The notes under the pieces are model-generated. The model was not told where the DNA came from and did not search any database. It saw only the letters and a program-made list of their open reading frames with translations. A stretch of 42,680 nt of DNA, from the IMG/VR virus record IMGVR_UViG_3300021479_000037, positions 1-42,680 of that record; one strand, given 5' to 3'. Origin of the DNA: a virus. Position numbers and translations under genes: made by a program. Shown here in pieces: positions 5,401 through 28,382 of the stretch (position 1 is its first letter; each line of letters opens with the position of its first letter).

Positions 5401-5882
5401 ACGACACCGCTGTTATCTGTAGAAATGTCATGCAACAGACCGTCAGCGCCTTTGCCGCCGATAAGAACAGGGTTGATGGGTCCGCCAGCAAGTCCACCAG
5501 TGGTGACGTTGGTTCCAGGGGGATATACACCCTGAACGAAAGGATCAGCCCATACAGCCGTCGTATTCCCTGGCTGAGAGATCAAAACTTGGCCTTCATG
5601 CGTAGGTACATTCCCTGAAATATCGATAGAGTTGATGTCACGTGCATTGACAATTCCCGTACCAGAGAAAGTGAGTGCATTGCCACTCGTAATTACCGTA
5701 TTGCCTGTGAGATTCGGAGTTGCCACTGTAGGAGAATTCTCAAGTACTATGGGGCCAGTTCCAGTTGTAGGTAAGGTAACTCCAGTTACTCCATTGGCCA
5801 CCGCAGCAGTAACTGGTATGGCCGTAATGATGTCCAACTCATTTATACCTCGGAGGTTCACTTTATTGGTTACATCAGCCAT
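2409..5882 (-). CDS. Large tail fibre/adhesin with C-terminal decoration domain
   Basis: A 1157-residue protein starting MADVTNKVNLRGINELD. The ATG at 5882 is preceded by AAGGAGATTT, so the longer start at 5939 is not used. It is almost wholly beta-type: repeated strands of Thr, Val, Gly, Ser and Asn, with an 'ENSPTVATPNLTG' segment near residue 45. A middle part near residues 610-790 (DIFAEFSAGFTTP, FQRIGFYDANNGFYVGYEG) looks like a jelly-roll sugar-binding module. The last ~100 residues match the separate 114-residue protein at 28736-29080, sharing for example CNSSTGPTKTIGSADC. It is probably the main receptor-binding fibre; the C-terminal module may be a shared cap or binding domain. Confidence 0.8.
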   Translation of the reverse strand: MADVTNKVNLRGINELDIITAIPVTAAVANGVTGVTLPTTGTGPIVLENSPTVATPNLTGNTVITSGNALTFSGTGIVNARDINSIDISGNVPTHEGQVLISQPGNTTAVWADPFVQGVYPPGTNVTTGGLAGGPINPVLIGGKGADGLLHDISTDNSGVVNVNATLVGSSSVTQGTTPWTIAGDSASGAANAGNPVKISGVFNTSQPTVTTGQTVDAQATARGAQIVATGADTFNTTVNAPLPAGTNVIGHVITDSGSTTAVTQATAANLNATVVGTGTFAVQPSLMPNRVATGTITSTESIVISAAGVGSLRWNILGTWTGIIVFEVSIDGTNWVNLGAQPTPLLNQSSSGAITSSTTANGQWISTAAGTNSVRIRGNTVTSGTATVHIEAGPGVAFQAVIPIADGQIDPNNSTTTPLGANAVFTGTSVDMAPFTSLRLALFTDQVSAIGGGQLQFSEDNTNWDFTYPFTILSTALSAKIVFGRIARYFRLIYQNGATPQGIMRCQVILQRSVEQVNHTLIGGTAIQDSDSATLTRSVVVGKAATQGDYVNVKVSPSGSIQVVSEGSVLGDVVTSSKRSQYDVDFSTSDATDATIITNTTSGSGTITQVGGQGIFATGTAAAGEAKGVTVQKLLYRPGSDIFAEFSAGFTTPTDANTAHDFQRIGFYDANNGFYVGYEGTGFNVSTRTGAVDTHIPLASFNLDPLTGVSTSQFTRIGIPEAVNFTKLNLYRIRFSWFGAANIFFDIFTPDGGWLPFHVIRYPNTAVVPSIATANLPMTIDAFKTASDATNLIIITDSWAAGVNESAIRMNDPIVNSTLAIPTRSVIAGIVDGTAAYGNVRLSNQNALQIAGSGSTSVAAAVWTSATAINTVIPIVTNNFNYNTVAVNLVGTSTITAGAVTFEVSIDNVNWVALAGVNVNTQTTFNGIFTLTVGTTAFLFNITGFNYFRERLSTAITGTGSVTSSFNIQGLASPNVSSTINTGTVHVSGDQGAPNSLANAWPIEITDGTNGPAAIKAASTAAVAADAALVVAISPNNPTFTGSAPGATAALSFSAVDSTAYENSHIIKASPGTFYGVTGFNSKASSQFLQVHNTTTVPADTAVPVLLIFCPANTNFSYDSGRFGKFFSTGMTICNSSTGPTKTIGSADCWFNVLFS

Positions 5883-5892
5883 AAATCTCCTT

Positions 5893-6303
5893 CTATGCGA
5901 ACGTAACCTGATTGGCTCCAAGGACGTGCCAGAAACCATTCTGAGAAACTATAACTAAACTCGACCCTGCAAATGCAGCAAAATGTGCCGTAGCTACAGC
6001 AGCAGTCCCGCTCCTTAGTGTCCCACCAGTGAAGGTAAGGACTGGAGCAGCAGTGTCGAGGGTTACAATTTCTACAAAGAAATCATCATCACCAGGGGCT
6101 GCAATTGTATAAGCTGTACCTATCGAAAGCGAATGACTAGCAGATTTTTGTGCATTGATGGGGCCATTGGCAACGTGGGGTCTTAAGCGATTCAAAGCTC
6201 CAGTGAAGTTGATATCATCTGCGAAAAAAGGCAATGAGCCTCTAGGAGAGGTGCCATTTAGCCACCCTGAGGGAATGTTAGGATTACCTGTTCCTTGTGA
6301 CAT
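5893..6303 (-). CDS. Fibre-tip/decoration protein with AVATAHFAAFAG module
   Basis: A 136-residue protein. Its last ~90 residues (TPVLTFTGG..., AVATAHFAAFAGSSLVIVSQ) are strongly similar to the end of the head protein at 20092-21285 and more distantly to the 145-residue protein at 21311-21748. The shared module is a compact beta domain. The first ~45 residues (NIPSGWLNGTSPRGSLPFF) differ and may attach it to the tail. It lies directly upstream of the large fibre, with a 10-base gap. It may be a small fibre or a trimerising cap. The same module at both head and tail ends of the map suggests copying within the genome. Confidence 0.7.
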   Translation of the reverse strand: MSQGTGNPNIPSGWLNGTSPRGSLPFFADDINFTGALNRLRPHVANGPINAQKSASHSLSIGTAYTIAAPGDDDFFVEIVTLDTAAPVLTFTGGTLRSGTAAVATAHFAAFAGSSLVIVSQNGFWHVLGANQVTFA

Positions 6304-6317
6304 GCCACTCTCCTATT

Positions 6318-7724
6318 TTATAGTGCTGCTGAATTCGTTATAAGCCACTGATTAGCTGATACTGTCATTGTTTGTGCCACACTGATTACGTTCAAACCAC
6401 CAAATCCGATTTGGTCAACAGTGGCTAAGAATGTTCCTATAGTTTCACTGAAAAGATTAACCCAGTTTTCACCAAAGAAATCATAAGAAACATCGAAGAA
6501 TACCGAAGTTCCATCATTTCTAATTCTTCCCCATCCGTAGGCGTAGCACCAATCCACCGCTTGGGTCTTTTCACTATTCGTTTCAACAAAAACTGTACCA
6601 CTATCTGCACTTTGTGATGTATAATGCTCTACTCTAAATGTAGTAGATCCGCTGGTCAAAAGTACTTCAAGACCCATGCGTCGTGTTGAGCTAGCATTCC
6701 CAAAATAAATACCAGCAGTTGCTGCACTCTGCCTACTAACACCAGGGATCGCTCTCAATTGTATAGCCAAACTATACGGCGTAACTGGTGGTGTCTGCAT
6801 AAGTGTTACCACTTGCAATGTTGCAATGCCCGGTATTGATAAGGTAATGGCACCATTTGAGACTTTTTGCTGTGCCGTTGCAGGAGAGCCACCATTGGCA
6901 AAGTTAGACTGTGTGAAACTTCCCAGTGTTGGCAAAGGATTCACACGGGAAGGGGTTCCACCTGCATTAGCTATGACAAAAGCCGTCGTGGCAATCTGTG
7001 TGGTATTCGTCGCCAAAGCTGCTGTGGGTGCTGTAGGAATCCCAGTCAAAGCTGGATTCGCTGCTAATACAACCGCACCCGTACCTGTAGTGCCTGTAAC
7101 GGTCGTTCCCTGAATCTTAGCAACTGTAGTAGCTGTTGCTCCCGGACCTGTACCCGTGACATCTCCGGTAAGACTGGTTACTCCTGATCCTCCACCACCA
7201 GTAGCATTAATTGTCACATTACCCGCTGAAGCATTGGATAAAGTTACATTGGTTCCTGCAATCAGATTCAATGTGGTTTGAGAGATATTTGGAGTAGTGT
7301 TTGTCTCAAATAGAACTGGCGAACCTGCAAGTGCATACCATTTATTGGTTCCACTATTATATTGAAACTGTTGGATAGACACTGCATTTGATACAGTGCT
7401 AGGTGGTGTCGCTCCCACGAAATTTGTGGGCATAACCACAGTCCAACCGCCAGTGACATTCTGTTGCCATGTTATCGTTATAACCTCACCATTAGGTCCA
7501 GGAATAACACTGCTTGATGTGACATTGGCCGTTAGAGGCACATTGAAGCTATTAGCAGTCGTAGCATCAAGTGTAAGGACTCCAGCAACAGGAGTGGCCG
7601 TAACAGGAGCAGGAGCAGCCCCAAAACCGACATAAGCAGAAGCATTCCCAGAGACATCAGATTGCCAAGTGACATTAGTTGCTCCAGCGGGAGCTGCGGG
7701 CAGATCGTGGTTAAGATTTATCAA
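6318..7724 (-). CDS. Tail fibre protein
   Basis: A 468-residue protein. Residues ~1-115 form a beta-rich start ending in TWQQNVTGGWTVVMP. Residues ~150-230 hold the fibre repeat type seen in its neighbours (LNLIAGTNVTLSNASAGNVTI, then LTGDVTGTGPGATATTVAKI). A 'IPTAPTAALATNTTQIATTA' segment, common in phage tail fibres, follows at ~235-255. The C-terminal ~180 residues (IYFGNASSTRRMGLEVLL, WCYAYGWGRIRNDG) look like a jelly-roll carbohydrate-binding domain. A fibre with a terminal binding domain is the likely role. Confidence 0.8.
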   Translation of the reverse strand: MINLNHDLPAAPAGATNVTWQSDVSGNASAYVGFGAAPAPVTATPVAGVLTLDATTANSFNVPLTANVTSSSVIPGPNGEVITITWQQNVTGGWTVVMPTNFVGATPPSTVSNAVSIQQFQYNSGTNKWYALAGSPVLFETNTTPNISQTTLNLIAGTNVTLSNASAGNVTINATGGGGSGVTSLTGDVTGTGPGATATTVAKIQGTTVTGTTGTGAVVLAANPALTGIPTAPTAALATNTTQIATTAFVIANAGGTPSRVNPLPTLGSFTQSNFANGGSPATAQQKVSNGAITLSIPGIATLQVVTLMQTPPVTPYSLAIQLRAIPGVSRQSAATAGIYFGNASSTRRMGLEVLLTSGSTTFRVEHYTSQSADSGTVFVETNSEKTQAVDWCYAYGWGRIRNDGTSVFFDVSYDFFGENWVNLFSETIGTFLATVDQIGFGGLNVISVAQTMTVSANQWLITNSAAL

Positions 7725-11700: not shown

Positions 11701-13057
11701 CGCCTGCGGGACCTCCACCACTTGGCCATTGAGTTGCCGCAACTGGGGCATTCAATGTGATCTGTGAGAAAGGCGCTAACTGGAAGATATCTCCACCAGC
11801 TTCAATGATCTGACCTGCCGGGTAAACTGTGTGTGCTGCCCAAGTTAATGAATCTACTTGAGCGACTGTCCAAGTTACCCCGCCATCGGTTGTGGTGTTG
11901 CCTAATATCGTTGCCCAAGTTGGTTGCGCTGGCCCAGATTTGCCAGCAGTAGTAACCTTTTGAACATTACCGTTGATATCTATGATAATTCCCAAAGGAG
12001 AAAAGAACGTGTTGGGAACCCAAGCGCCTGCTGCACCCGTTGAAACTATAGGTGTATTCGGTGGTGCAACTATTCCCCAATTCTCCACAGAAGGGAGTCC
12101 AGGATGTGTTGCATCAGGTGTTCCACGATTAGTCCATAGTACCGTTCCATCAATCGTCAAGCCGCCTTGGAAGTTATTGCCTGCATTCGGCGTAACTGTG
12201 CTCCAAGTAGGTTGCGTAGCACCAGAAGTTGGCGTACCACCTGTAGCGGTTGCATTTATTGTCTCTGGATTAGAAAATGTACCAGGAATATTGAAGGTAA
12301 ATGTAAAGGTATTTGTGGTAACTGTAAGAATTGTAACGGTTTGGCCCGATAATTGGGAAGTAACTATGGTGCTAGGAAATGTGACAGTAAGTCCTGGGGT
12401 CAACAACCCGGTAAGGGTGGTACTAGAAGTTGCCGTGATTGTGCCACCAACTCCTGAGATATTCGTAATAGGAAATATCGCTGCTGTCAACTGCTGGATG
12501 TTAGTATTAGGGTCAATAAGGAAGGTAGTCAAAAACGGAGTAATAGGTGTGTTCCACTTGGCAAACGCCATCCAAAGTGTAAGAGACTGTAACCACTTCT
12601 TATTATCAAGACCATTGCCAAAATACAAAGTGTTGCCTACAGACTGCATATACGTCTGACCTGCACCTGGAGTCTTGGTCCAAACGAGCGTCTTCACACC
12701 GGCAAATAGCGAGTATAGTGCATTACTCTGATCAACCATCACATCGATCTGCTCAGTAGAGGTATTGAATAGTCGAAATTCTTCAAAACGGTCTACATTG
12801 GCATAGGTATTACTATCAAATACTGAATTTCCTGGCCTACGAGCAAGAGTCAATCGATTCGTAATCTCAACATTAGAGCCTGCAATAAGCGCATCACCTG
12901 AAGCACCATAATATTTCTCTGCCTGACGAGAAGTCGCCGCATCGCGCAATGGACTGCGGTTGGTCCATAAGCCCGATGACCAGCGACCCGTATAGATAGG
13001 TGCGAATCTAGTGGGTTTTTGAGCCTGAGCCCCTGAAATTGACAATTGATTTGGCAA
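8774..13057 (-). CDS. Tail tubular protein B-like giant tail protein with inserted DUF3494 (ice-binding fold) domain
   Basis: A 1427-residue protein. The N-terminus (GRWSSGLWTNRSPLRD, then VDRFEEFRLF and beta-propeller-like strands) and the C-terminus (FANAVLGSINLAQPGQVAVV, SISVIIDEA) resemble large tail tubular/nozzle proteins of T7-like phages. Three modules are inserted. Residues ~280-420 hold repeats of the 'G..QPTW.....TTDGG..WT' type. Residues ~460-650 hold a PA14-like beta domain (NWNVPVAGQYTITVKHHDG). Residues ~1083-1286 hold a DUF3494 domain, the fold of type 1 ice-binding proteins (NGDLVLSPGSSVTGGP, TLTPGTYSESSG, VVGSSATIGT, TTVNGRLLARNG). It likely forms the tail nozzle, with surface modules for adhesion. 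It follows the A-like proteins, as in T7. Confidence 0.8.
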   Translation of the reverse strand: MPNQLSISGAQAQKPTRFAPIYTGRWSSGLWTNRSPLRDAATSRQAEKYYGASGDALIAGSNVEITNRLTLARRPGNSVFDSNTYANVDRFEEFRLFNTSTEQIDVMVDQSNALYSLFAGVKTLVWTKTPGAGQTYMQSVGNTLYFGNGLDNKKWLQSLTLWMAFAKWNTPITPFLTTFLIDPNTNIQQLTAAIFPITNISGVGGTITATSSTTLTGLLTPGLTVTFPSTIVTSQLSGQTVTILTVTTNTFTFTFNIPGTFSNPETINATATGGTPTSGATQPTWSTVTPNAGNNFQGGLTIDGTVLWTNRGTPDATHPGLPSVENWGIVAPPNTPIVSTGAAGAWVPNTFFSPLGIIIDINGNVQKVTTAGKSGPAQPTWATILGNTTTDGGVTWTVAQVDSLTWAAHTVYPAGQIIEAGGDIFQLAPFSQITLNAPVAATQWPSGGGPAGGQFQQTSSSSPFAIRATASGTSLSVDDPIQADSPASAILWNTFDASGAVTGTTSPFPGPNSSGITKDFQIAFTTNWNVPVAGQYTITVKHHDGMVWGVNGGATLVSGPHNDPNHLTHTALNSYPIMGGTNLPLNDGGLSTDVFVVNFPTAGSYAVEFDWAYWFHQGRTFVVTANGNTLITGPAESGATSPAFPAYTTSLAPARANVTESAGNFVWNNFGPITDMQWRANTGFTLPNSTILDPNGNTEAPFEAGFTGTTRPTFSTTLNSLTLDNPNLIWINQGPGAAPPPGTISALAGGFQYAIALVNTLDNTVSNASPLSVSTGNFVGSTGVVIPPGSGLIPANIDPQADYVAIFRTVDGGSLPFLIPGTGNSIYTETLHDYLTKGFTDTTPDTGLNNLISAPIAGENTPPAGGAINLTYHLGRIFFSVGNVGYWTSGPDTPAGNGVNGVAPLNFDTFPSLLKRIVPTNQGVIVFSVSDIFLVNTSNGVTIPKAVILLKGIGLLSYNALDVNGALIGFYTTDNQFVILDPGAGVSYVGLPIGDQFRKNDGNPGTSWNAANVYVTWHVDGEDQAWYVSDGKFGWFRLMPTPAPETGLTWSPFATIVGGVKAVQSLEVLPGVHKLLLGPGTLSSGAGSNFITFGVLTNVAVMAGTTITSVPLTTINGDLVLSPGSSVTGGPVVNGATHIDDPIAVADQAYATTLFGQLSALTPTPIVSELGSVTLTPGTYSESSGTFHITGGLTLTLNGNGRYVFQCSSTFITGAGSTIALVGGAAAADVVFVVGSSATIGTTNILNATVLALTSISVNTGTTVNGRLLARNGSVTFAGTDTTSLPVQSGVGVLLKRDSNFFQDNTSSYFANAVLGSINLAQPGQVAVVGFVTTDSVRTGTPLSISVIIDEALPFFNGPFEPLTNWVTDPPNQPESRSIRGQRFYFSELPDQAAVCRHLQCSINFGISRVQDEILTFSIYGSFMQES

Positions 13058-13070
13058 GGTAGCTCCTAAA

Positions 13071-14234
13071 CTAAACTGTGACTACTTGGTAGAGCCATTC
13101 TAAATCCGTAAACGTATTATCAGCCGGAAGTGTTGAAATCGCTGTTTGATCGCCCGAAGTGGTTAGCCCTATCATCCCAAACCCTGCATTTGCCCCTGCT
13201 GAAGCTTGGGCAAATAGCAAATTTGAATTTCCAGCAACATTTGCTATATAGAAAGCTGCCGTGTAGTCATGAAGTGTATCTAATGCTAAATTTATAGGAT
13301 CAGATTCAATGAATGTGGGGGTTTCTCCAGAGTTTAGTGCCAATGTCTGGGCTCCCAATCCTCCAATAGTTATTGGGGTTGATGAGATTACCGCCAGAGA
13401 ATTTGCTAAAGTGGTCAAAAGCACCATATTCCCTAATACTAGAGGAAAACTATTATGGTTATCTGCAATGGCCATTCTCATTTTCCAATTATTAGCTACC
13501 GGATTATTGATAAGGTTCCGTCCATAAATTTTATTGAATATAGTAATATTTTGGAATCCAGAAGTTGCAATATTCCCAAGATTAATAATTCTCCATCCTA
13601 GAGTGACATTTCTTCCTGCTGGAATGGTTGAAGAAGTAGGTGATGCAATCGTAACATTTCCACCTGAGGTATTAGTTAGGGTGACATTCGCACCAGCAAC
13701 CAAATTTAGAGTCAACTGCGAGGAGTTTGCAACGCCATTCGTCTCTACGATGAGAGGTGCCACAGTCCCAGATGAAATCGTAATATTTTGTCCTGCCGAT
13801 GCCACTGTTACGTTAGTTCCTGCGATAATGTTAATAGCGCCAGTTTCCGTGTTTAAACTAGTAACACCTGATCCACCACCTGAATTCACAATACTAAGAC
13901 TGTTAGGAATCCATGTTCCTAGATCGAAAGTTGCACCGGACACCACTACTTGGTACTGTGGTCCCCATGCTAATTGACCTTTAGCCGTGAATGCATTTAC
14001 TGTGTAGTAACTGTTCACCGGAGTAAGGTCATCATTACCCCAAACCAATACCGTACCTGATACGTTCCCACTACCATCCAAGGGAACCCGTATCTTAATG
14101 CCAAAACCTACCTGACCGACTCCTGTAGCCACTTCATCTTGTGAAAGTTCCATGGTAAGAAATCCAAGGGCCAGCGGGTTTCCTTCCAGATCTTGGAAGC
14201 CACCACCGATGAGTTGGGTCTTAGTTAATGCCAT
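13071..14234 (-). CDS. Tail fibre/appendage protein
   Basis: A 387-residue protein starting MALTKTQLIGGGFQDLEGNP, an opening often seen in phage tail appendage proteins that begin with a small anchoring beta domain (residues ~1-110). The middle carries two copies of the fibre repeat (SGVTSLNTETGAINIIAGTN and LNLVAGANVTLTNTSGGNVT), as in the 468-residue fibre. The C-terminal ~170 residues are a beta-rich domain. It lies between the tail tubular A-like and B-like genes, so it may connect tube and fibres. Confidence 0.75.
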   Translation of the reverse strand: MALTKTQLIGGGFQDLEGNPLALGFLTMELSQDEVATGVGQVGFGIKIRVPLDGSGNVSGTVLVWGNDDLTPVNSYYTVNAFTAKGQLAWGPQYQVVVSGATFDLGTWIPNSLSIVNSGGGSGVTSLNTETGAINIIAGTNVTVASAGQNITISSGTVAPLIVETNGVANSSQLTLNLVAGANVTLTNTSGGNVTIASPTSSTIPAGRNVTLGWRIINLGNIATSGFQNITIFNKIYGRNLINNPVANNWKMRMAIADNHNSFPLVLGNMVLLTTLANSLAVISSTPITIGGLGAQTLALNSGETPTFIESDPINLALDTLHDYTAAFYIANVAGNSNLLFAQASAGANAGFGMIGLTTSGDQTAISTLPADNTFTDLEWLYQVVTV

Positions 14235-19040: not shown

Positions 19041-20063
19041 TTACGGGAGGGTCAGCACGATCAAATTGCCAGTCAACGTAACCGCAGTCTGAGCCAAGCA
19101 ACGACCGTGAACCGTAACGGTATCACCAACATTGATAGCGGCTCCTGCAAGTATGCTACCGTTGAATACGTTCGTAGCTCCAAGAGTCATCGACGTGCCC
19201 ATTACCCAATAGACGTTCTTCGCCAGTGCTCCACCAGTCAGAATAACCTGACAAGTAGCGCCCGTGGTCATCGCCGTGGTCGCCTGGAAGACCCAAACGT
19301 CAGTAGCGGAACCGTTTAGCGTAAGATTCGTCGAAGTCGTGATGCTAAAAGTTGAAGTAGATCGATAGATTCCAGGACCAAGAGTCAATCCACCAAGATT
19401 CTTATCGCCAGCATAAGTGGTTCCAGGAGTCCGAGTGCTGAGATCTGCGTAAGCTGCCAAGAAAGCAGTGATAGCAGTTTCAGTCGGCGAATCATCGAGA
19501 CTGTGAAGAACGAACGGAGAATCCACAACCGTCGGAGGAAAGTTATTGATTGCAGTGCGACTACCAACGTCAGACGCAACGTGAGCAGCATTGCCAGAAG
19601 TGGCGGCGCTACCAGTCGAAGCAGCGATTCCTAGCATACCGAAGTTACCAAGGCCAGTTAGTACTGGACCCGGAACGGGAGTATTCACGGTAACGGTAGA
19701 AAGAACCGTAGCATATATTTTGTCCACAAGAACGCTATTCGTTCCATCAAATGTTGCATACTGGACTTCGATTTCAGCCTGTCCAGTGGACACGGCGGTG
19801 ATGATCCCACTCGTAGCGCCGACCGTGGCGATAGAAGGTGAACGTGAAACATATTGGGCAATATTTGAATTACCAGAAGTGAAGGCCGATCCTGCAACAT
19901 CCTGTATAAGTGGGGTAACAGTGGTCGTGGTCATCCCGACAACACCAAGTGTTACGGTGTATTCATTGCCCGTAATCTGCGTAATGCCAGTGCCGCTCAT
20001 ACGAACTCGTGCAGCGGTCCCAATACCAGTCGTAGGATTGGGCTGAGGAGTGGGGTTTGCCAT
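19041..20063 (-). CDS. Head decoration protein: Ig-like domain plus DUF3494 ice-binding-fold domain
   Basis: A 340-residue protein with TTTAAGGAGCC before the ATG. Residues ~1-125 are a BIG2-like Ig domain (SPSIATVGATSGIITAVSTG) paralogous to the next gene. Residues ~135-340 are a DUF3494 domain: LGNFGMLGIAASTGSAATSG at its start, LGGLTLGPGIYRSTSTFSIT, NVYWVMGTSMTLGATNVFNG and VTVHGRCLAQTAVTL follow the family's beta-helix pattern. Ice binding cannot be claimed, because the fold also serves as an adhesin. Its position three genes after the capsid gene suggests a capsid-surface fibre. Confidence 0.82.
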   Translation of the reverse strand: MANPTPQPNPTTGIGTAARVRMSGTGITQITGNEYTVTLGVVGMTTTTVTPLIQDVAGSAFTSGNSNIAQYVSRSPSIATVGATSGIITAVSTGQAEIEVQYATFDGTNSVLVDKIYATVLSTVTVNTPVPGPVLTGLGNFGMLGIAASTGSAATSGNAAHVASDVGSRTAINNFPPTVVDSPFVLHSLDDSPTETAITAFLAAYADLSTRTPGTTYAGDKNLGGLTLGPGIYRSTSTFSITTSTNLTLNGSATDVWVFQATTAMTTGATCQVILTGGALAKNVYWVMGTSMTLGATNVFNGSILAGAAINVGDTVTVHGRCLAQTAVTLTGNLIVLTLP

Positions 20064-20091
20064 GAAGGCTCCTTAAATAAAAACGTACTGA

Positions 20092-21285
20092 TTATGCAAA
20101 GGTCACTGCATTTTGGCTAATGACATTCCATTTTCCCGTATGCGAAACCAAGATAATACTGGACCCTGCGAATGCTGCAAAATGAGCCGTAGCGACTGCC
20201 GCTGAGCCACTATTTAGAGTATTTCCGGTGAAGGTAAGAACTGGGGTCGCTGTGTCGAATGTAGTAATCTCAATCCTAGTGTCATCAACTGAAGGGGCAG
20301 CAATCGTAAGCGCCGTAGCCACAGTGACAACATAATTAGCAGATCCAGTAACAGGAACTGCTCCATTGGCTACAATTGCGGTTAAAGGATTCAATGAACC
20401 ACTGAAAGTAATTCCACCTAATATATCCAAAGTATTAGTAGGAATTTGAACATTGATTCCGATGCTACCAGTATCTGGACCATTTAGACCTGAACCATAA
20501 ACAGTATTGCCAATGCTCATCTGGTTACTAGCAGTACTATCTGGAACAAATGAACCAACACCTATTGTGATATTCCTAGATCCTGTGTCAACATCATTAG
20601 TCTGACCAATAGAAACGTTATTACTACCAGTAGTAATTGCGATGCCTGCATTGGCACCCATAGTAGTATTATTTGCTCCGGTAGTAATCTGTTGTCCTGC
20701 ACCAAGACCTATAGCAGCATTATTGCCCCCGGTAGTCAGTGCCTTAAGAGCACTATAACCACATGCTGTGTTCTTAACACCAGTAGTTGCAACTTTCAAT
20801 GCTTGTGAGCCAACTGCCACATTCTGAAATGTTGTACAAAGATTTAAAGCATCAAAACCTACCGCAGTGTTCTCTGTGGGAGTCGTGAATATTCCAAATT
20901 CAGTTGTAATGGATTGTAATGCTCCTGAACCTACCGCAGTATTCTTGGTAGCAGTAGTGAGACTATGTAGAGCATCAAATCCTAATCCAGTATTATCACT
21001 ACCAGTAAGAGAAAAGTTTCCGCTACCAGTACCAACAAATAGATTATCAGTACCAAAAGTACTTAGAATTGCAGCACCAGACTGTGCAACCGTTCCAACA
21101 GTTGGTGCACTACTAGCAGGAAGATTGACTGCTGTGGCAGGTCCAGCTACAGGAGCAGCAGGAACCCAACCACCAGTAGTCGGATTTCCAATATAAAGCA
21201 GATCATTAGCGATATCGACAGCCAAAGCTGGCGTACCGGGCACGGGAATCGTGGGTACGCCACGTGTTATATAATCATACGCCAT
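20092..21285 (-). CDS. Head fibre with YadA-like head repeats
   Basis: A 397-residue protein with three parts. Residues 1-45 (MAYDYITRGVPTIPVPGTPA) match the start of the next gene and probably anchor it to the capsid. Residues ~85-250 are about ten repeats of 14-18 residues of the type 'NTAVGSGALQSITT', 'NNAAIGLGAGQQITTGA', which is the left-handed beta-roll seen in trimeric autotransporter heads. Residues ~305-397 are the AVATAHFAAFAG module shared with the protein at 5893-6303. This suggests a trimeric head fibre with a capping domain. Confidence 0.82.
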   Translation of the reverse strand: MAYDYITRGVPTIPVPGTPALAVDIANDLLYIGNPTTGGWVPAAPVAGPATAVNLPASSAPTVGTVAQSGAAILSTFGTDNLFVGTGSGNFSLTGSDNTGLGFDALHSLTTATKNTAVGSGALQSITTEFGIFTTPTENTAVGFDALNLCTTFQNVAVGSQALKVATTGVKNTACGYSALKALTTGGNNAAIGLGAGQQITTGANNTTMGANAGIAITTGSNNVSIGQTNDVDTGSRNITIGVGSFVPDSTASNQMSIGNTVYGSGLNGPDTGSIGINVQIPTNTLDILGGITFSGSLNPLTAIVANGAVPVTGSANYVVTVATALTIAAPSVDDTRIEITTFDTATPVLTFTGNTLNSGSAAVATAHFAAFAGSSIILVSHTGKWNVISQNAVTFA

Positions 21286-21838: not shown

Positions 21839-23972
21839 TTAGCTGATCGCACTCGCGGCGTCGATGAGACGAATCCTGATGATCGGATCGGCTCCCAAAG
21901 AGGTCGTAAAGTGCACTTTATAAGCGGTCCAGCCTGGGATCAGGCCTTCCGGGTCCGCTACGCTAGGTGCCAAGCGTAATATTATTCTTATGGTTAATGA
22001 TCTTGTTGCACTGCTCGATGAACCTTTCAGTAGTCAAAGTTAGTTTCATTCTATTGCATAAACTACAACAAGGAACTAAATTCTCTTTGACATATCCTAC
22101 TTTATTATCAATTCGGTCTATTCCATTAGGAGCGATTTCCCCACAATAATGGCACGACAAACTAGTAATAGCTTCAAACTCTTCTTCTGAAATCAAAAAC
22201 TCGTAATCTCTCTGCCTTGCATTTCGTCTGTAATCCACAATGCGTGGTTTGCGCTTTTCAAAGGCATCGACATCACGATATAAACACCCACAGCTTTGAA
22301 CCTTACCGGATCTTAAAGACCCTCCAGTAACATTCTTCTCTTTACCACATTCACATTTACAACGCCATCTTGAACGTTTGTGCTTCGTTGGTAATTGAGC
22401 AATCACTGTTAATCTGCCGTATATGTTTCCAATCTCATCTACGCTGTTATAGGCGGGAAGACCTTTACGTCCATCCGTACCTTTTTGGCAATTCTCCACG
22501 GCACGTTCCCGCTTCAAACAACCACAGCTAAGCAGTTTACCCGACCGCAATACATGACCCAATGCGATGCGTTCTTGTCCGCAGTCACAAATGCAATTCC
22601 ATTGCGCGAGTGTTTTGTTTCCTTTTTTAAGAGTTTCAGCTTTGGAGATCACGATCAATCTTCCGTAGCGGTTTCCTGTTTCATCAATATAAGTGCTTTT
22701 TTCCATAAGTTTAGACTATCACATATCCTATAAGGATGCAACTCGTTTAGTCGTTCAGGCTGCGTTAGCTTGCCCCCTGTTAGCATTTCAGCTTCCAAGT
22801 CAATTAGAGTTGCTTTATTTTTTACTGTAGATTTAAGCCTACAGACGCCACACCGAAGTTTCTAGCGTTTTGTACTATGGACGGTTTTATGTTCTGCCAT
22901 TCGCCGTCGCCATAAGCGGTATCGCCCTGTGCGCCAAGCTTGATGCTGTAAACGCCGTCGCGCCCGAAGATATAGGTGCGAAGAGCGGTCAATCCGGTCA
23001 CGGATTGGAAGTTAGGAGTCGTGGTGACGAGCTGCGATTGGAAGAACGCCACGCCAGAAGACGGGAATTCGATCATTTCAGTCAGGTCGGTAGAGATAAG
23101 ATCTTCCATCTTGGCCAGACCAATGGAGGTGTGCTTCGCGATGTCGATGGGGCTGTTGTTGCTGTTGTCAGCAAGAACGTCACCAACGGCAAACGGGTGA
23201 ATCACGCCACCGAACAGCTTGGTAGCTTCATCATACGGACGAACTGCACGGCCAGCCAAGCTCTGAACCGCATTACGAATCGCGGACAGGGACAGGGTCG
23301 TGAAAGCCGTCAACGAAGTCGCAGGCAGTTTCACGAGAACCGAGCTATCAATCGAAGGAGCGCCGTCAACCGTGGCGCGAACCACAGCGGACAACGACTC
23401 GCCCAAACGATACGCCATTTCCTTGGCAACGTTCTCAACGGTGTTGTCAATCGCGGTAGCGAGAGCCAAAGAAGAGAAGTTAGCGAAGTCGGCGTATTCG
23501 CCGATGGTGGCAGTCGTGTTCAGGACGTTAGCAGTGATGCTCGTTCCAACGGTGCCTTCGGTGACCTGAGTCGTGTTGGCAGCGAACGGAACGTACATGA
23601 ACATTTCATATTGGTTACCAGACTGGACGGGCAGGTTCAAACGCTCTGAACAAGCCACGAAAGGAGTCTGAGCTTTCAAATTCTCACGGAATTTCGCGTC
23701 GTAGTACTTGCAAGTTGTTACTCAGCATGTCTATGCCGGAATTGAGCATTTCTGTCAATTTCATGTCATTATGGAACTATTCTGACATGTTCGGACTATC
23801 GTATCACTCCTCATAAAAGTGTCTTTTCGCTTAGTCTCTCAGCGTGCCTTTCGGCTTCGCCCTTCTTGGCATTTCAGCGTTGAAGTCAATTAGAAAAGAT
23901 TTAAAGACCGCCAGTAAAAACGGTCGATTGCGGGAGGGTGTTGGTAGTGTTTGCAGCAGGAGTATAAGCCAT
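21839..23972 (-). CDS. Major capsid protein, split by two group I introns
   Basis: Spliced product of 354 residues. Exon 1 is 23972-23904 (MAYTPAANTTNTLPQSTVF..., 23 codons); exon 2 is 23706-22835 (290 codons plus 2 bases); exon 3 is 21962-21839 (C plus 40 codons and stop, ending RIRLIDAASAIS). The joins restore frame and read TGGL-YYDAKFRENL and ASVG-F-VADPEGLIPGW. Both introns end in G as group I introns must. The sequence (TEGTVGTSITANVLNTTATI, EYADFANFSSLALATAID) resembles the N4-gp56-type capsid family with an HK97-like fold. Exact splice points may be off by a few bases. Unspliced reading would give a protein lacking both ends. Confidence 0.88.
21963..22706 (-). CDS. Intron-encoded HNH homing endonuclease
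   Basis: A 247-residue protein inside capsid intron 2. Two tandem DNA-binding repeats of the type 'YGRLTVI...W.C.CECG......LRSGK..SCGC' lie at ~14-64 (Cys 38, 40, 42, 61, 63) and ~96-141 (Cys 116, 118, 120, 139, 141). The nuclease part at ~165-220 has CHYCGEIAPNGIDRIDNK and CCSLCNRMK, an HNH/zinc-finger core as in phage homing enzymes. It would cut intronless capsid genes and promote intron spread. It has no strong ribosome binding site, which is usual for such ORFs. Its TAG stop forms the 3' end of the intron. Confidence 0.88.
   Translation of the reverse strand: MEKSTYIDETGNRYGRLIVISKAETLKKGNKTLAQWNCICDCGQERIALGHVLRSGKLLSCGCLKRERAVENCQKGTDGRKGLPAYNSVDEIGNIYGRLTVIAQLPTKHKRSRWRCKCECGKEKNVTGGSLRSGKVQSCGCLYRDVDAFEKRKPRIVDYRRNARQRDYEFLISEEEFEAITSLSCHYCGEIAPNGIDRIDNKVGYVKENLVPCCSLCNRMKLTLTTERFIEQCNKIINHKNNITLGT
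21963..22834 (-). ncRNA. Group I intron 2 of the capsid gene (872 nt, with HNH ORF)
   Basis: The core lies at its 5' end: GCTGAAATGCTAACAGGGGGC (P/Q region), CCTGAACGACTAAACG (R), and GTGATAGTCT (S), so GACTA pairs with TAGTC as P7; CATCC/GGATATG forms P8. The HNH ORF begins right after the S element and runs to the 3' splice site. The first bases (AAATCTAC) and the 'TCTAATTGACTT' segment match intron 1, showing common descent. The last base of the HNH stop codon is the required terminal G. Confidence 0.85.
23707..23903 (-). ncRNA. Group I intron 1 of the capsid gene (197 nt, ORF-less)
   Basis: On the minus strand: TAAATCTTTTCTAATTGACTT at the 5' end, GCTGAAATGCC (P/Q), GCCGAAAGGC hairpin (P6 with a GAAA loop), GCTGAGAGACTAAGCG (R), CACT...AGTG (P8) and ACGATAGTCCG (S). 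P7 is GACTA/TAGTC. It ends GCAAG before exon TACTAC. At 197 nt it is a very small group I intron. It is clearly related to the other two. Confidence 0.85.
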
Positions 23973-25427: not shown

Positions 25428-27741
25428 TTAGACAACTGTACCCTCACCTTGGGAGCCCAATCCTTGAGTCTCACTAGGAGATCCCGTTAGAGCCTCTGAT
25501 TTAGCATTGGCACCGGCTGCTTGCCTGACTAAATCGCGCTTAATACGGTTGTCATTCTGCTGATCTTCTAGTTGTGACTTCTGTTGGAACTTCTGATCCT
25601 GAGACTGTTGGGCGACTGCACCCTTAGATTGCTGCATAGCCTGCTGTGAAGCTGCTTGCTTTCGCTGGATCATCTCAGGAGTCATCGGTTTGATAATATC
25701 CTGTTGATTCTTCCATTCCGAAGACTGCATCCACATGCTCAGAATTGCCTTGTAGTCAATATACTCTTGTTGGTTTTCCGCCAGACTTTCCTGAATCTGT
25801 GGGTTCTCAAAGATTTGAGTAATCAACGTGAGCGACTGTGCCATCGTCTTCTTTGCAGCGAGACTTGCACCAGCTAATACTTCAAACTCATCTCTAGAAT
25901 CCCAGAAATCCTGCATATCTAGGTTCTTAATTAATTCCTTACCAACTTCTTCACCTAGTATTTCAACGATTTCCTTGTCCGCTATGTATTCAAATACGAG
26001 TTCATCAAGGATATAAAGGAAAGGTTCAAATACCTGTTCAATGAAGTTATCCAAAGGGCCATCTAAGCGTGTGGCTGAAGCGCCCGCGAGGGTAGCTGCA
26101 CCACCTGCTGTCCGTCCCATGCTGCTGCGTGGACCGGCTGTGGACCCTTGAACCAGCATTTGGTCGGCTCCTGAAGAGCTTTCCGTTGCCTGTTGGTTCT
26201 CTTGAAGTGCTTGCCAAACCTCAGGCGGAACTCGTGGAGTTTCCATGAGTTTATATGCCTTAGTGATATCTCCATCGACTGTCAGCATCTTACCTAGGCC
26301 GGTTCGGATCATTTGTGTTGGTGAATTGGCATCTCTGCTACGCAGATACACTGGATTTACACCAAAACTAAGAATCTTCAGGATAGCATTGATCGTTCCT
26401 TGGTCAACACGTTGGTTCTGACCTACGATAAGGCCCAGACCCATGCCGTAGAATGCCTTAGGGCGATTCCACCAGTTTGAGCTAAGGAATGGTATCTTCT
26501 TGAACGGATTATCCCCTGTGAAGAGAACTTTTTTACGGTCAAGTACCAGAATCTTACGCTTTTTATCCCAGTACTCCATAACCTCTACCTTGTTAAGTAG
26601 CAAATCAGGACTTACTGTGATACTTACTTGCTCTGAGTGAAGTACAACACCTTCTGTATAAGTGGCTTGAGTGGATGCGAGCAATGGTGCGACACCAAGA
26701 GTGCTATTTGGCATCCAGAGACTTTGTAAGTCAGCGGGCCAATCCCATCCCTCGATAGTCACACCATCTTCATCTACGCTGGACTTTTGAAGGTCAAGCA
26801 TCTGGTAGTAATCCATATAGCGGATATCCACCACAAAGTCAGCCTTGCGGATATCTCCTACTTCGACCTTGGGGTCCACAAGGACCTTATCCAACGGTCT
26901 GTGCTCAAAGAATGGCCTAGGAACCATTGTTACGGTTCTTTCGATATCTGGAGCATCATCAGTGATAATCGTTTCTGAGTCCTGCTGTCCAACTGGACCA
27001 GACTTCAGAACAGCCTTAGCTGCCTTTCGTTTCTTACGTTCGACTTCAACGTACTCTATGCCCCACTTATAGATAGCAGTGCCAAATAATGCTTTGTTCT
27101 CCATGCCCCACTTGACTTCACGCTTGAAGTTGCAGGCATCCAGGAGATACGCGAACAACGCCGTTTTAGCTTCGGTCGTGTTCTGGGAAGTTCCGGGACG
27201 TGGACGCAATGCCAACGGCGGATCTTCGTAAAATAAACCCTTGTACAACTGAGGAACCACAGAGTTGCAAATCTTAGCGACGGTGAACCGTTGCACATTG
27301 GGTTCGAGGACGTAAGTATTCTCATATGTCGAAAGTGGTCGCGGCGATTGGAATAGAAGCATTCATGTTACTGCTAGTTAGCAGGTCAAACTATTTCTAG
27401 TTGACTCTTATGGTTGTAATTCCCATAAGATCGGACTATCGCATAACCCTGTATTGGGTTTTCACTCGCTTAGTCTCTCAGGCTGTGCGAAAGCACTTGC
27501 CCCTTGTTGGCGTTTCAGCGTTCAAGTTATCAGAGTGAATTTAAAGCGGACCATCTTGTCTAAAATCCGCGTCTCTCCACAATAATGCCCAAGATTTCTG
27601 AGAAATGTATGCCTCGGCCTTTGCAGCCGAACCCACCACCAGAGCAAGGTCACCACTAAGAGTTTTGATTTCCCCTTCCTTACCGTAGTCTTGTTCAGTA
27701 AGGTTGCGTCCGGCGTTGCCGTCGGATTCTAATGGGTTCAT
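25428..27741 (-). CDS. Portal protein, split by a group I intron
   Basis: Spliced product of about 709 residues: exon 1 27741-27544 (66 codons, MNPLESDGNAGRNLTEQD...) and exon 2 27359-25428 (643 codons). The join reads ...RQDGPL-LLFQSPRPLSTYEN. Portal features are the long helical/beta core (MENKALFGTAIYKWGIEYVE), the 'GLIVGQNQRVDQGTINAIL' segment typical of podophage portals, and a Gln-rich coiled C-terminus (QQSQDQKFQQKSQLEDQQND). It follows the GIY-YIG gene with an ATGA overlap. Unspliced translation stops after 66 residues, so no portal can form without splicing. Confidence 0.85.
27360..27543 (-). ncRNA. Group I intron 3, in the portal gene (184 nt, ORF-less)
   Basis: On the minus strand: TAAATTCACTCTGATAACTTG start, GCTGAAACGCCAACAAGGGG (P/Q), GTGCTTTCGCAC hairpin (P6), GCCTGAGAGACTAAGCG (R), AACCC...GGGTT (P8) and GCGATAGTCCG (S). 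GACTA/TAGTC forms P7. The 3' end ..GAATG and exon CTTCTATTCC keep the reading frame. It is a close relative of capsid introns 1 and 2. Confidence 0.85.
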
Positions 27742-28382
27742 GCAGTACCCTCCAATTTCATTTTACGTTTTCTTTCTTGGAAGGCCAGATTAGCCTGCCG
27801 AATCTTTTCCCTAGTTTCGGGAGATACTTCGTGTCCTTTATGTGCCCGTGACATGTTCACTCTCTGCTCGGGAGTACGTGTACCCATCTTTTTGCCCAGT
27901 TTTGCGATGCTTAATTTCTCTCGGTGCTCTTTGGTCTTAGGGATTCCGGTGCCCGCTTTGCTCATCTTGGCTTTTGTTTCTTCGGAATGCTTTCTACCTC
28001 TTCCCGCTTCTGCGAGTTTGGCACGCCATTCAGGAGTAAACTCTCTCGTGTACCCGAAAGACCCTCCACCGCCTGCTGCAACGTTATAACCAAGCGCCTT
28101 ATCTTGAGAGTTCATGACTTTTATGAAATATGTCTCAAGGCGGTCGGTTAATAACTTCGTGAGGCTCTTATCCTGTAAATCCAATTGAATCAACGGCTCA
28201 ATTACAAAGGCCGATTCTCCATATTTACGCAAAGCATTGTAAAGATGGGGTTTACGAGTGTTGGTCTTAGACTTCAAAGAGCGCGTGTAATCAGCGCGTA
28301 GGTATCGCTTCAGGTTCGTACCGGCGTGTTGACCGACGTAAACCTTCCCATTAACTCGGTTTGTGATGAGATATATGAACAT
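27738..28382 (-). CDS. Free-standing GIY-YIG homing endonuclease
   Basis: A 214-residue protein. The N-terminal ~95 residues are a GIY-YIG nuclease (IYLITNRVNGKVYVGQHAG, then a catalytic-type Glu in DRLETYFI). From ~125 on there are three NUMOD3-type DNA-binding repeats (GRKHSEETKAKMSKA, IPKTKEHREKLSIAKLGKK, VSPETREKIRQANLAF). This matches the seg/mob class of phage endonucleases. Its stop overlaps the portal start (ATGA), and the portal gene holds an ORF-less intron 200 bases on. It may cut intronless portal genes for the intron (collaborative homing). A TGCTATAAT box places its transcript start only a few bases before the ATG. Confidence 0.88.
   Translation of the reverse strand: MFIYLITNRVNGKVYVGQHAGTNLKRYLRADYTRSLKSKTNTRKPHLYNALRKYGESAFVIEPLIQLDLQDKSLTKLLTDRLETYFIKVMNSQDKALGYNVAAGGGGSFGYTREFTPEWRAKLAEAGRGRKHSEETKAKMSKAGTGIPKTKEHREKLSIAKLGKKMGTRTPEQRVNMSRAHKGHEVSPETREKIRQANLAFQERKRKMKLEGTA

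Follow-up and report, generated by a model that had tools for sequence, protein, structure and literature searches.

Group I introns that interrupt capsid genes have been described in phages. The one found in mycobacteriophage LittleE is 819 bp long and was proven by RT-PCR, and the paper reporting it cites a capsid-gene group I intron in the lactococcal phage Tuc2009 (PMC3706429). The DNA polymerase and terminase genes of Bastillevirinae hold up to three introns, with a mean length of 802 (PMC11878797), and gene 60 of T4 carries a 50-nt insert that is suspected of being a degenerate group I intron and of giving endonuclease protection (PMC5009743). Here, we analysed a stretch of 42,680 nt of DNA from a soil phage (IMG/VR record IMGVR_UViG_3300021479_000037), hereafter called the window, whose capsid gene (minus strand, 21839-23972) is split into three exons by two introns. 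The capsid gene of LittleE and its Tuc2009 counterpart resemble the one of the window: the major capsid gene is split, a U precedes the intron, a G terminates it and an endonuclease gene lies inside. However, these two phages have one intron where the window has two and where its relatives, by splice-aware alignment, have up to six interruptions, including short inserts lacking a core, to which we refer as minis. The features of the window capsid gene are the following:

23920..23972, minus strand: capsid exon 1, 53 nt, made of MAYTPAANTTNTLPQST and the GT of Val18 (splice-aware alignment; N-terminus kept in relatives)
23711..23919, minus strand: group I intron 1, 209 nt, free of endonuclease genes, with 3' end ...AACTTG (covariance model, P1)
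22864..23710, minus strand: capsid exon 2, 847 nt (splice-aware alignment; PHROG 1357 major head protein, 2.5e-11)
21971..22863, minus strand: group I intron 2, 893 nt, at capsid codon 300 (covariance model aligned to 22637-22842)
21963..22706, minus strand: predicted HNH homing-endonuclease ORF in intron 2, 247 aa (PHROG 374 HNH endonuclease, 9.6e-32)
21842..21970, minus strand: capsid exon 3, 129 nt, 43 codons (splice-aware alignment; C-terminus kept in relatives)
21839-21841, minus strand: capsid stop codon

The exons were placed by aligning the DNA with a profile of intact capsids, allowing introns only after U and ending in G; the terminal G is thus an imposed constraint and the 343-residue product is not, and neither P1 nor P10 was used. 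The spliced product of 343 residues has no gaps and no stops and is colinear with intronless relatives; ORF calling returns only 285 aa, from an internal TTG. As relatives, we took the 80 best of 133 matches to the capsid ORF in IMG/VR together with Tunturiibacter phage Tunturi_3 (72-81% identical). Most of them (58/81) are uninterrupted, with an N-terminus ending LPQSTV(K/R)(F/Y)YD and a C-terminus reading ADPEGLIPGW...AIS, and relatives neither begin at the internal TTG nor end before ADPEGLIPGW. The initial annotation had seen a capsid reading frame in three pieces, whose true ends two related group I introns would hide from ORF calling, and had called for a comparison with intronless homologues; the three pieces are borne out and the hidden ends supported, both junctions being matched in that comparison. 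It had also considered such an interruption rare, a view that has to be qualified, since capsid introns are already in print (PMC3706429) and are common in this lineage, the gene being interrupted in 23 of the 80 IMG/VR relatives with the highest scores, in a set that is biased against such genes because it was ranked by score. Annotation of the window truncates the capsid gene on both sides and the portal gene at its start. A Pfam search of the capsid protein found nothing, and an AlphaFold prediction of the capsid made from 11 relatives (mean pLDDT 29.7) was left unused.

The earlier report of R/S (P7) elements and a terminal G in both inserts is confirmed, the core motif matching exactly twice in the window versus never in 100 shuffles. 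We built a covariance model from 28 endonuclease-free introns of relatives, excluding the window sequence. Their alignment contains helices that we take, by comparison with group I anatomy, to be P3, P4, P5, P6, P7 (bulged), P8, P9 and P9.1; 98.1% of cells are paired, both sides have changed in 34 of 44 pairs, and covariation reaches 0.579 versus 0.195 after shuffling, pairing falling to 31-42% when helix partners are slid. The group I core from P3 to P8, with the P7 pseudoknot, is present in this alignment and in the window sequences that the model matches. The covariance search, as proposed in the initial annotation, retrieved both capsid introns (intron 1, E=2.9e-43, 169 bits; intron 2, E=4.1e-27, 108 bits) and also another member of their family, an intron lying in the portal gene at 27360-27564 (E=4.6e-41, 161 bits), which had been overlooked; the next-best match in the window has E=0.63. 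The model fits one of two core subclasses well and the second poorly. Rfam gave no group I match on the window, on the locus at E<=10 or on 10 relatives, a silence that is uninformative here because Rfam also misses complete introns of the relatives, and phage records contained no blastn match to intron 1. Judged by sequence, the two capsid inserts and the portal insert are group I introns, that is, fresh members of a kind already known from phage capsid genes.

All three window introns have a terminal G and join their exons in frame. P1 lies exactly at the 5' splice site in intron 1 (GACCGU^/GCGGUC, 6 bp, U.G) as well as in intron 2 (ACGCU^/GGCGU, 5 bp, U.G). At the 3' junction of intron 2 (...ACGCTTG^GCACCT), a P10 of 5 bp, GCACC/GGUGU, supports an exon 3 of 43 codons and not of 41 as first annotated; in intron 1, contiguous P10 pairing is limited to 2 bp. 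Exon 1 had been given as 23 codons and the protein as 354 residues, and exon 1, if read through to the first stop, indeed ends in ...FTGGL. Nevertheless, FTGGL is not found in relatives and overlaps P1, the extra residues corresponding to the P1 loop and guide of intron 1; the alternative borders, with an exon 1 of 53 nt (17 codons and the GT of a split Val), yield exactly 343 residues. We give the longer model practically no chance, its 23 codons and 354 residues having arisen because exon 1 was run into the guide sequence of intron 1. The ORF of intron 2, placed after P7, overruns the intron, with its stop codon 8 nt inside exon 3; it has relatives in 221 phage records, has nothing above the cut-off in Pfam and, by its family match, is a predicted HNH homing endonuclease.

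The features at the portal gene are the following:

27565..27741, minus strand: portal exon 1, start ATG at 27741
27360..27564, minus strand: third group I intron, 205 nt (covariance model, E=4.6e-41; spliced colinearity; P1)
25428..27359, minus strand: portal exon 2 (PF23899 SU10_portal, 3e-16)
27738-28382, minus strand: free-standing GIY-YIG/NUMOD3 homing endonuclease gene (PHROG 314, 1.8e-35)

The spliced portal protein is colinear with that of Tunturi_3. The portal intron has a P1 of 6 bp (GCGGAU^/GUCCGC, U.G at the splice site) and only 1 contiguous bp of P10. It sits 177 nt into the portal gene and does not itself encode an endonuclease; the stop codon of the GIY-YIG/NUMOD3 gene and the portal start codon overlap (ATGA). 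Introns without an ORF have been reported to be mobilised by endonucleases acting in trans (PMC3984707). Many portal genes of relatives have full group I introns at codons 56-85, sometimes two (288-504 and 590-796 in L031), and no mini was found in these portal genes.

A wider sample of capsid genes was gathered by two capsid scans and one intron-core scan (87 stretches). It sorts into distinct groups, 52 of them intact and 55 not intact, with a small number of distant or truncated groups counted among the latter; these numbers do not represent a frequency because the core scan selects interrupted genes. Distant capsids (L095, L087, L150, L129 and the L125 group) were omitted. Interruptions fall into two sizes, 32-98 nt for the minis and about 180 nt upward for full introns, and those mini-bearing genes that are complete give joined products of 341-347 residues with no stops. 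We excluded from the mini count a piece of a full intron divided by the alignment (L165, site 186), a misplaced call in a truncated locus (L085, site 34) and 18-nt in-frame insertions at codon 251 that represent natural length variation. The alignment divides or misplaces some full introns (L067/L123, the N-terminal one of L080, L145, L222, and L147 at site 186-190), which were counted as full only; two stops remain in L145 and L222 for this reason. In the poorly conserved terL, gp4, gp10 and gp11, the same alignment yields false gaps, which served as negative control only. A search of bacterial genomes returned one related locus, L231, the sole relative in the genome collection, which sits in a MAG labelled Bacteroidetes. 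The genome of Tunturi_3 (L230) has annotated RNA ligases (gp64, gp74) and an RNA 2'-phosphotransferase (gp90) at 5823-7049, 12272-13462 and 19650-20207.

In 31 of 32 distinct minis, a P1 with U.G at the splice site and a P10 frame the splice sites that had been called from the protein alone, the terminal G being here again an alignment constraint. With thresholds of 6 bp or more for a P1 that starts with U.G and of 4 bp or more for an abutting P10, 31 of the 34 distinct short capsid insertions qualified, the three misses being L112 at site 22 (P1 of 3 bp, P10 of 8 bp) and two alignment misplacements; these counts overstate independence because the sequences are related to each other. None of 407 short alignment gaps in the control genes (terL, gp4, gp10, gp11, gp12 and portal) reached the same thresholds, and for 34 of 35 rows between 0 and 4 of 500 insert shuffles came up to the observed value. 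Only 14 of 74 full introns pass both thresholds, and the guides are therefore stronger in minis. On the other hand, no catalytic core of their own was detected in the minis, which at 32-98 nt are far too short to hold one and include no model match at E<=0.01. Minis would act like, yet are not, complete group I introns. They were not found outside the capsid gene in the control set made of portal and five other genes. Sites 20, 22, 52/53 and 300 are occupied by either a mini or a full intron depending on the phage, several of these full introns being of HEG-bearing length, including intron 2 of the window. The latter, at codon 300, has junction guide bases identical to those of the mini found at this site in L124; the window capsid gene itself has no minis.

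The next downstream intron is a full one in all 30 distinct minis that could be tested, representing 16 site pairs, two further minis (L098 and L100) being at contig ends; no mini is the last interruption of a complete gene, and none directly precedes another mini. Moreover, the tail of the mini tends to pair, with covariation, with the exon just upstream of P1 of the next intron. Tails paired with their own exon score 481.5 versus 340.6+-14.4 when swapped, a value reached in 0 of 20,000 permutations and, for site 327 alone, in 1 of 20,000. At this site the exon variants are mostly synonymous and the mini tails track them, as illustrated by the tail/exon pairs GAAGUUGUG/CACAACUUC, GAGGUUGUG/CACAACCUC and GUUAGUUGU/ACAACUAGC, and also by GACGUAG/CUACGUC and GAUGUG/CACAUC. 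The best duplex of the tail lies within 2 nt of P1 of the next intron in 18 of 29 minis and away from the expected place in the other 11, versus a mean of 4.7+-1.9 and a maximum of 11 of 29 at that P1 with shuffled tails (1000 runs). Free-energy folds recover P1 in 26/30 and the tail-exon pairs in 24/30. Minis also seem to travel together with the neighbouring full intron. L126 and L153 are 95-100% identical except in their first 200 nt (82%), where one has a mini at 22 and a full intron of 750 nt at 53 and the other a mini at 31 and a full intron of 203 nt at 53; likewise L031 and L216, 99-100% identical in mid-gene, fall to 77% at the end that holds mini 300 and full intron 327.

Based on these observations, we consider it very probable that the window introns self-splice to give the 343-residue capsid protein and that the minis of the relatives are excised by the core of the downstream intron. 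In the window introns, GTP would attack after the exon U held by P1, and the freed exon would then attack after the terminal G, aligned by P10; the endonuclease of intron 2 may in addition support homing. In the mini-bearing genes, the mini, tethered by the tail-exon anchor, would offer its splice sites by way of its P1 and P10 to the core of the full intron downstream; this core would excise the mini and then itself via its own P1. Minis would then rather probably constitute a new type of intron, reduced to guides (32-98 nt), which has kept P1, P10 and the terminal G, lost the ribozyme, gained the tail and is spliced by the core of its neighbour. They may persist by occupying homing sites at low cost.

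Guide helices alone could also present a substrate to a trans-acting core located elsewhere or to phage proteins, and RNA repair genes do exist in this phage lineage. Nevertheless, the strict mini-then-full order and the anchor at P1 of the neighbour favour the neighbour, and the U.G pair and terminal G are marks of group I splicing, so that we regard a distant core or proteins as unlikely agents. In the record behind L223 (67 kb), the model finds one core, that of the neighbour, and in the one behind L084 (98 kb) two, both within the capsid gene, in a search that could miss a distant core because the model covers the second subclass poorly. That minis come exclusively from metagenomic assemblies, no isolate carrying one, would be compatible with assembly artefacts or with dead relics in defective genes. 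This origin appears still less likely: complete mini-bearing genes rejoin without stops as described above, the minis of L006 and L007 are identical across two different metagenomes, and the tails follow exon variants that are mostly synonymous.

The minis might instead be skipped in translation by programmed bypassing, like the insert of T4 gene 60, itself a short insert in a phage gene with a similar size (50 nt versus 32-98 nt) and, like minis, a junction hairpin. The T4 insert is bypassed between matched GGA codons (PMC5009743); in our analysis it has no U^..G^ P1/P10 signature, scoring only 5 on the measure of P1 plus P10. By contrast, take-off and landing codons match in none of the 32 minis, and a Trp that is invariant in the 11 aligned intact proteins would be missing from a product bypassed at site 313 (GGN...GGG, both Gly). 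The absence of matching codons, together with the absence of the guide signature from the T4 insert, thus disfavours bypassing, which we hold to be the most improbable of these explanations for minis.

Reduced introns relying on outside catalysts are otherwise represented by spliceosomal introns and by Euglena group III introns, which are linked to group II. Minis resemble them as small introns without a catalyst of their own, but their guide logic is that of group I. If minis are spliced by their neighbour, group I introns would have passed from self-splicing to dependence on a shared catalyst, a transition that has long been proposed for group II. One ribozyme would serve two introns, in parallel to the presumed origin of spliceosomal introns, and this would represent a natural case of a single ribozyme core accepting two substrate helices. 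Minis might also represent a stage between full introns and short inserts like the one in T4 gene 60. The Bastillevirinae genes, like those described here, have several group I introns each, many with endonuclease genes, but the sections consulted of that report mention no coreless inserts (PMC11878797). In engineered tandem Tetrahymena introns, two group I introns surround a short exon, but the arrangement is artificial and both introns are complete (PMC10136302). At the level of titles and abstracts, in a coverage that mostly leaves out subscription journals, we found no coreless group I insert beside a full intron.

Two further features of the minis were noticed. At sites 22 and 53 (L116, L158, L093, L131, L126), base pairing also joins the end of the mini to the exon directly past P10, forming 3'-junction hairpins such as GCACAU/AUGUGC, GUACAU/AUGUAC and ACGGAAU/AUUCCGU, with some covariation. 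In addition, the 70-nt mini of L063/L064 at site 20 carries, as judged by eye, a promoter-like TTGACA..17..TAATAT just before its 3' splice site.
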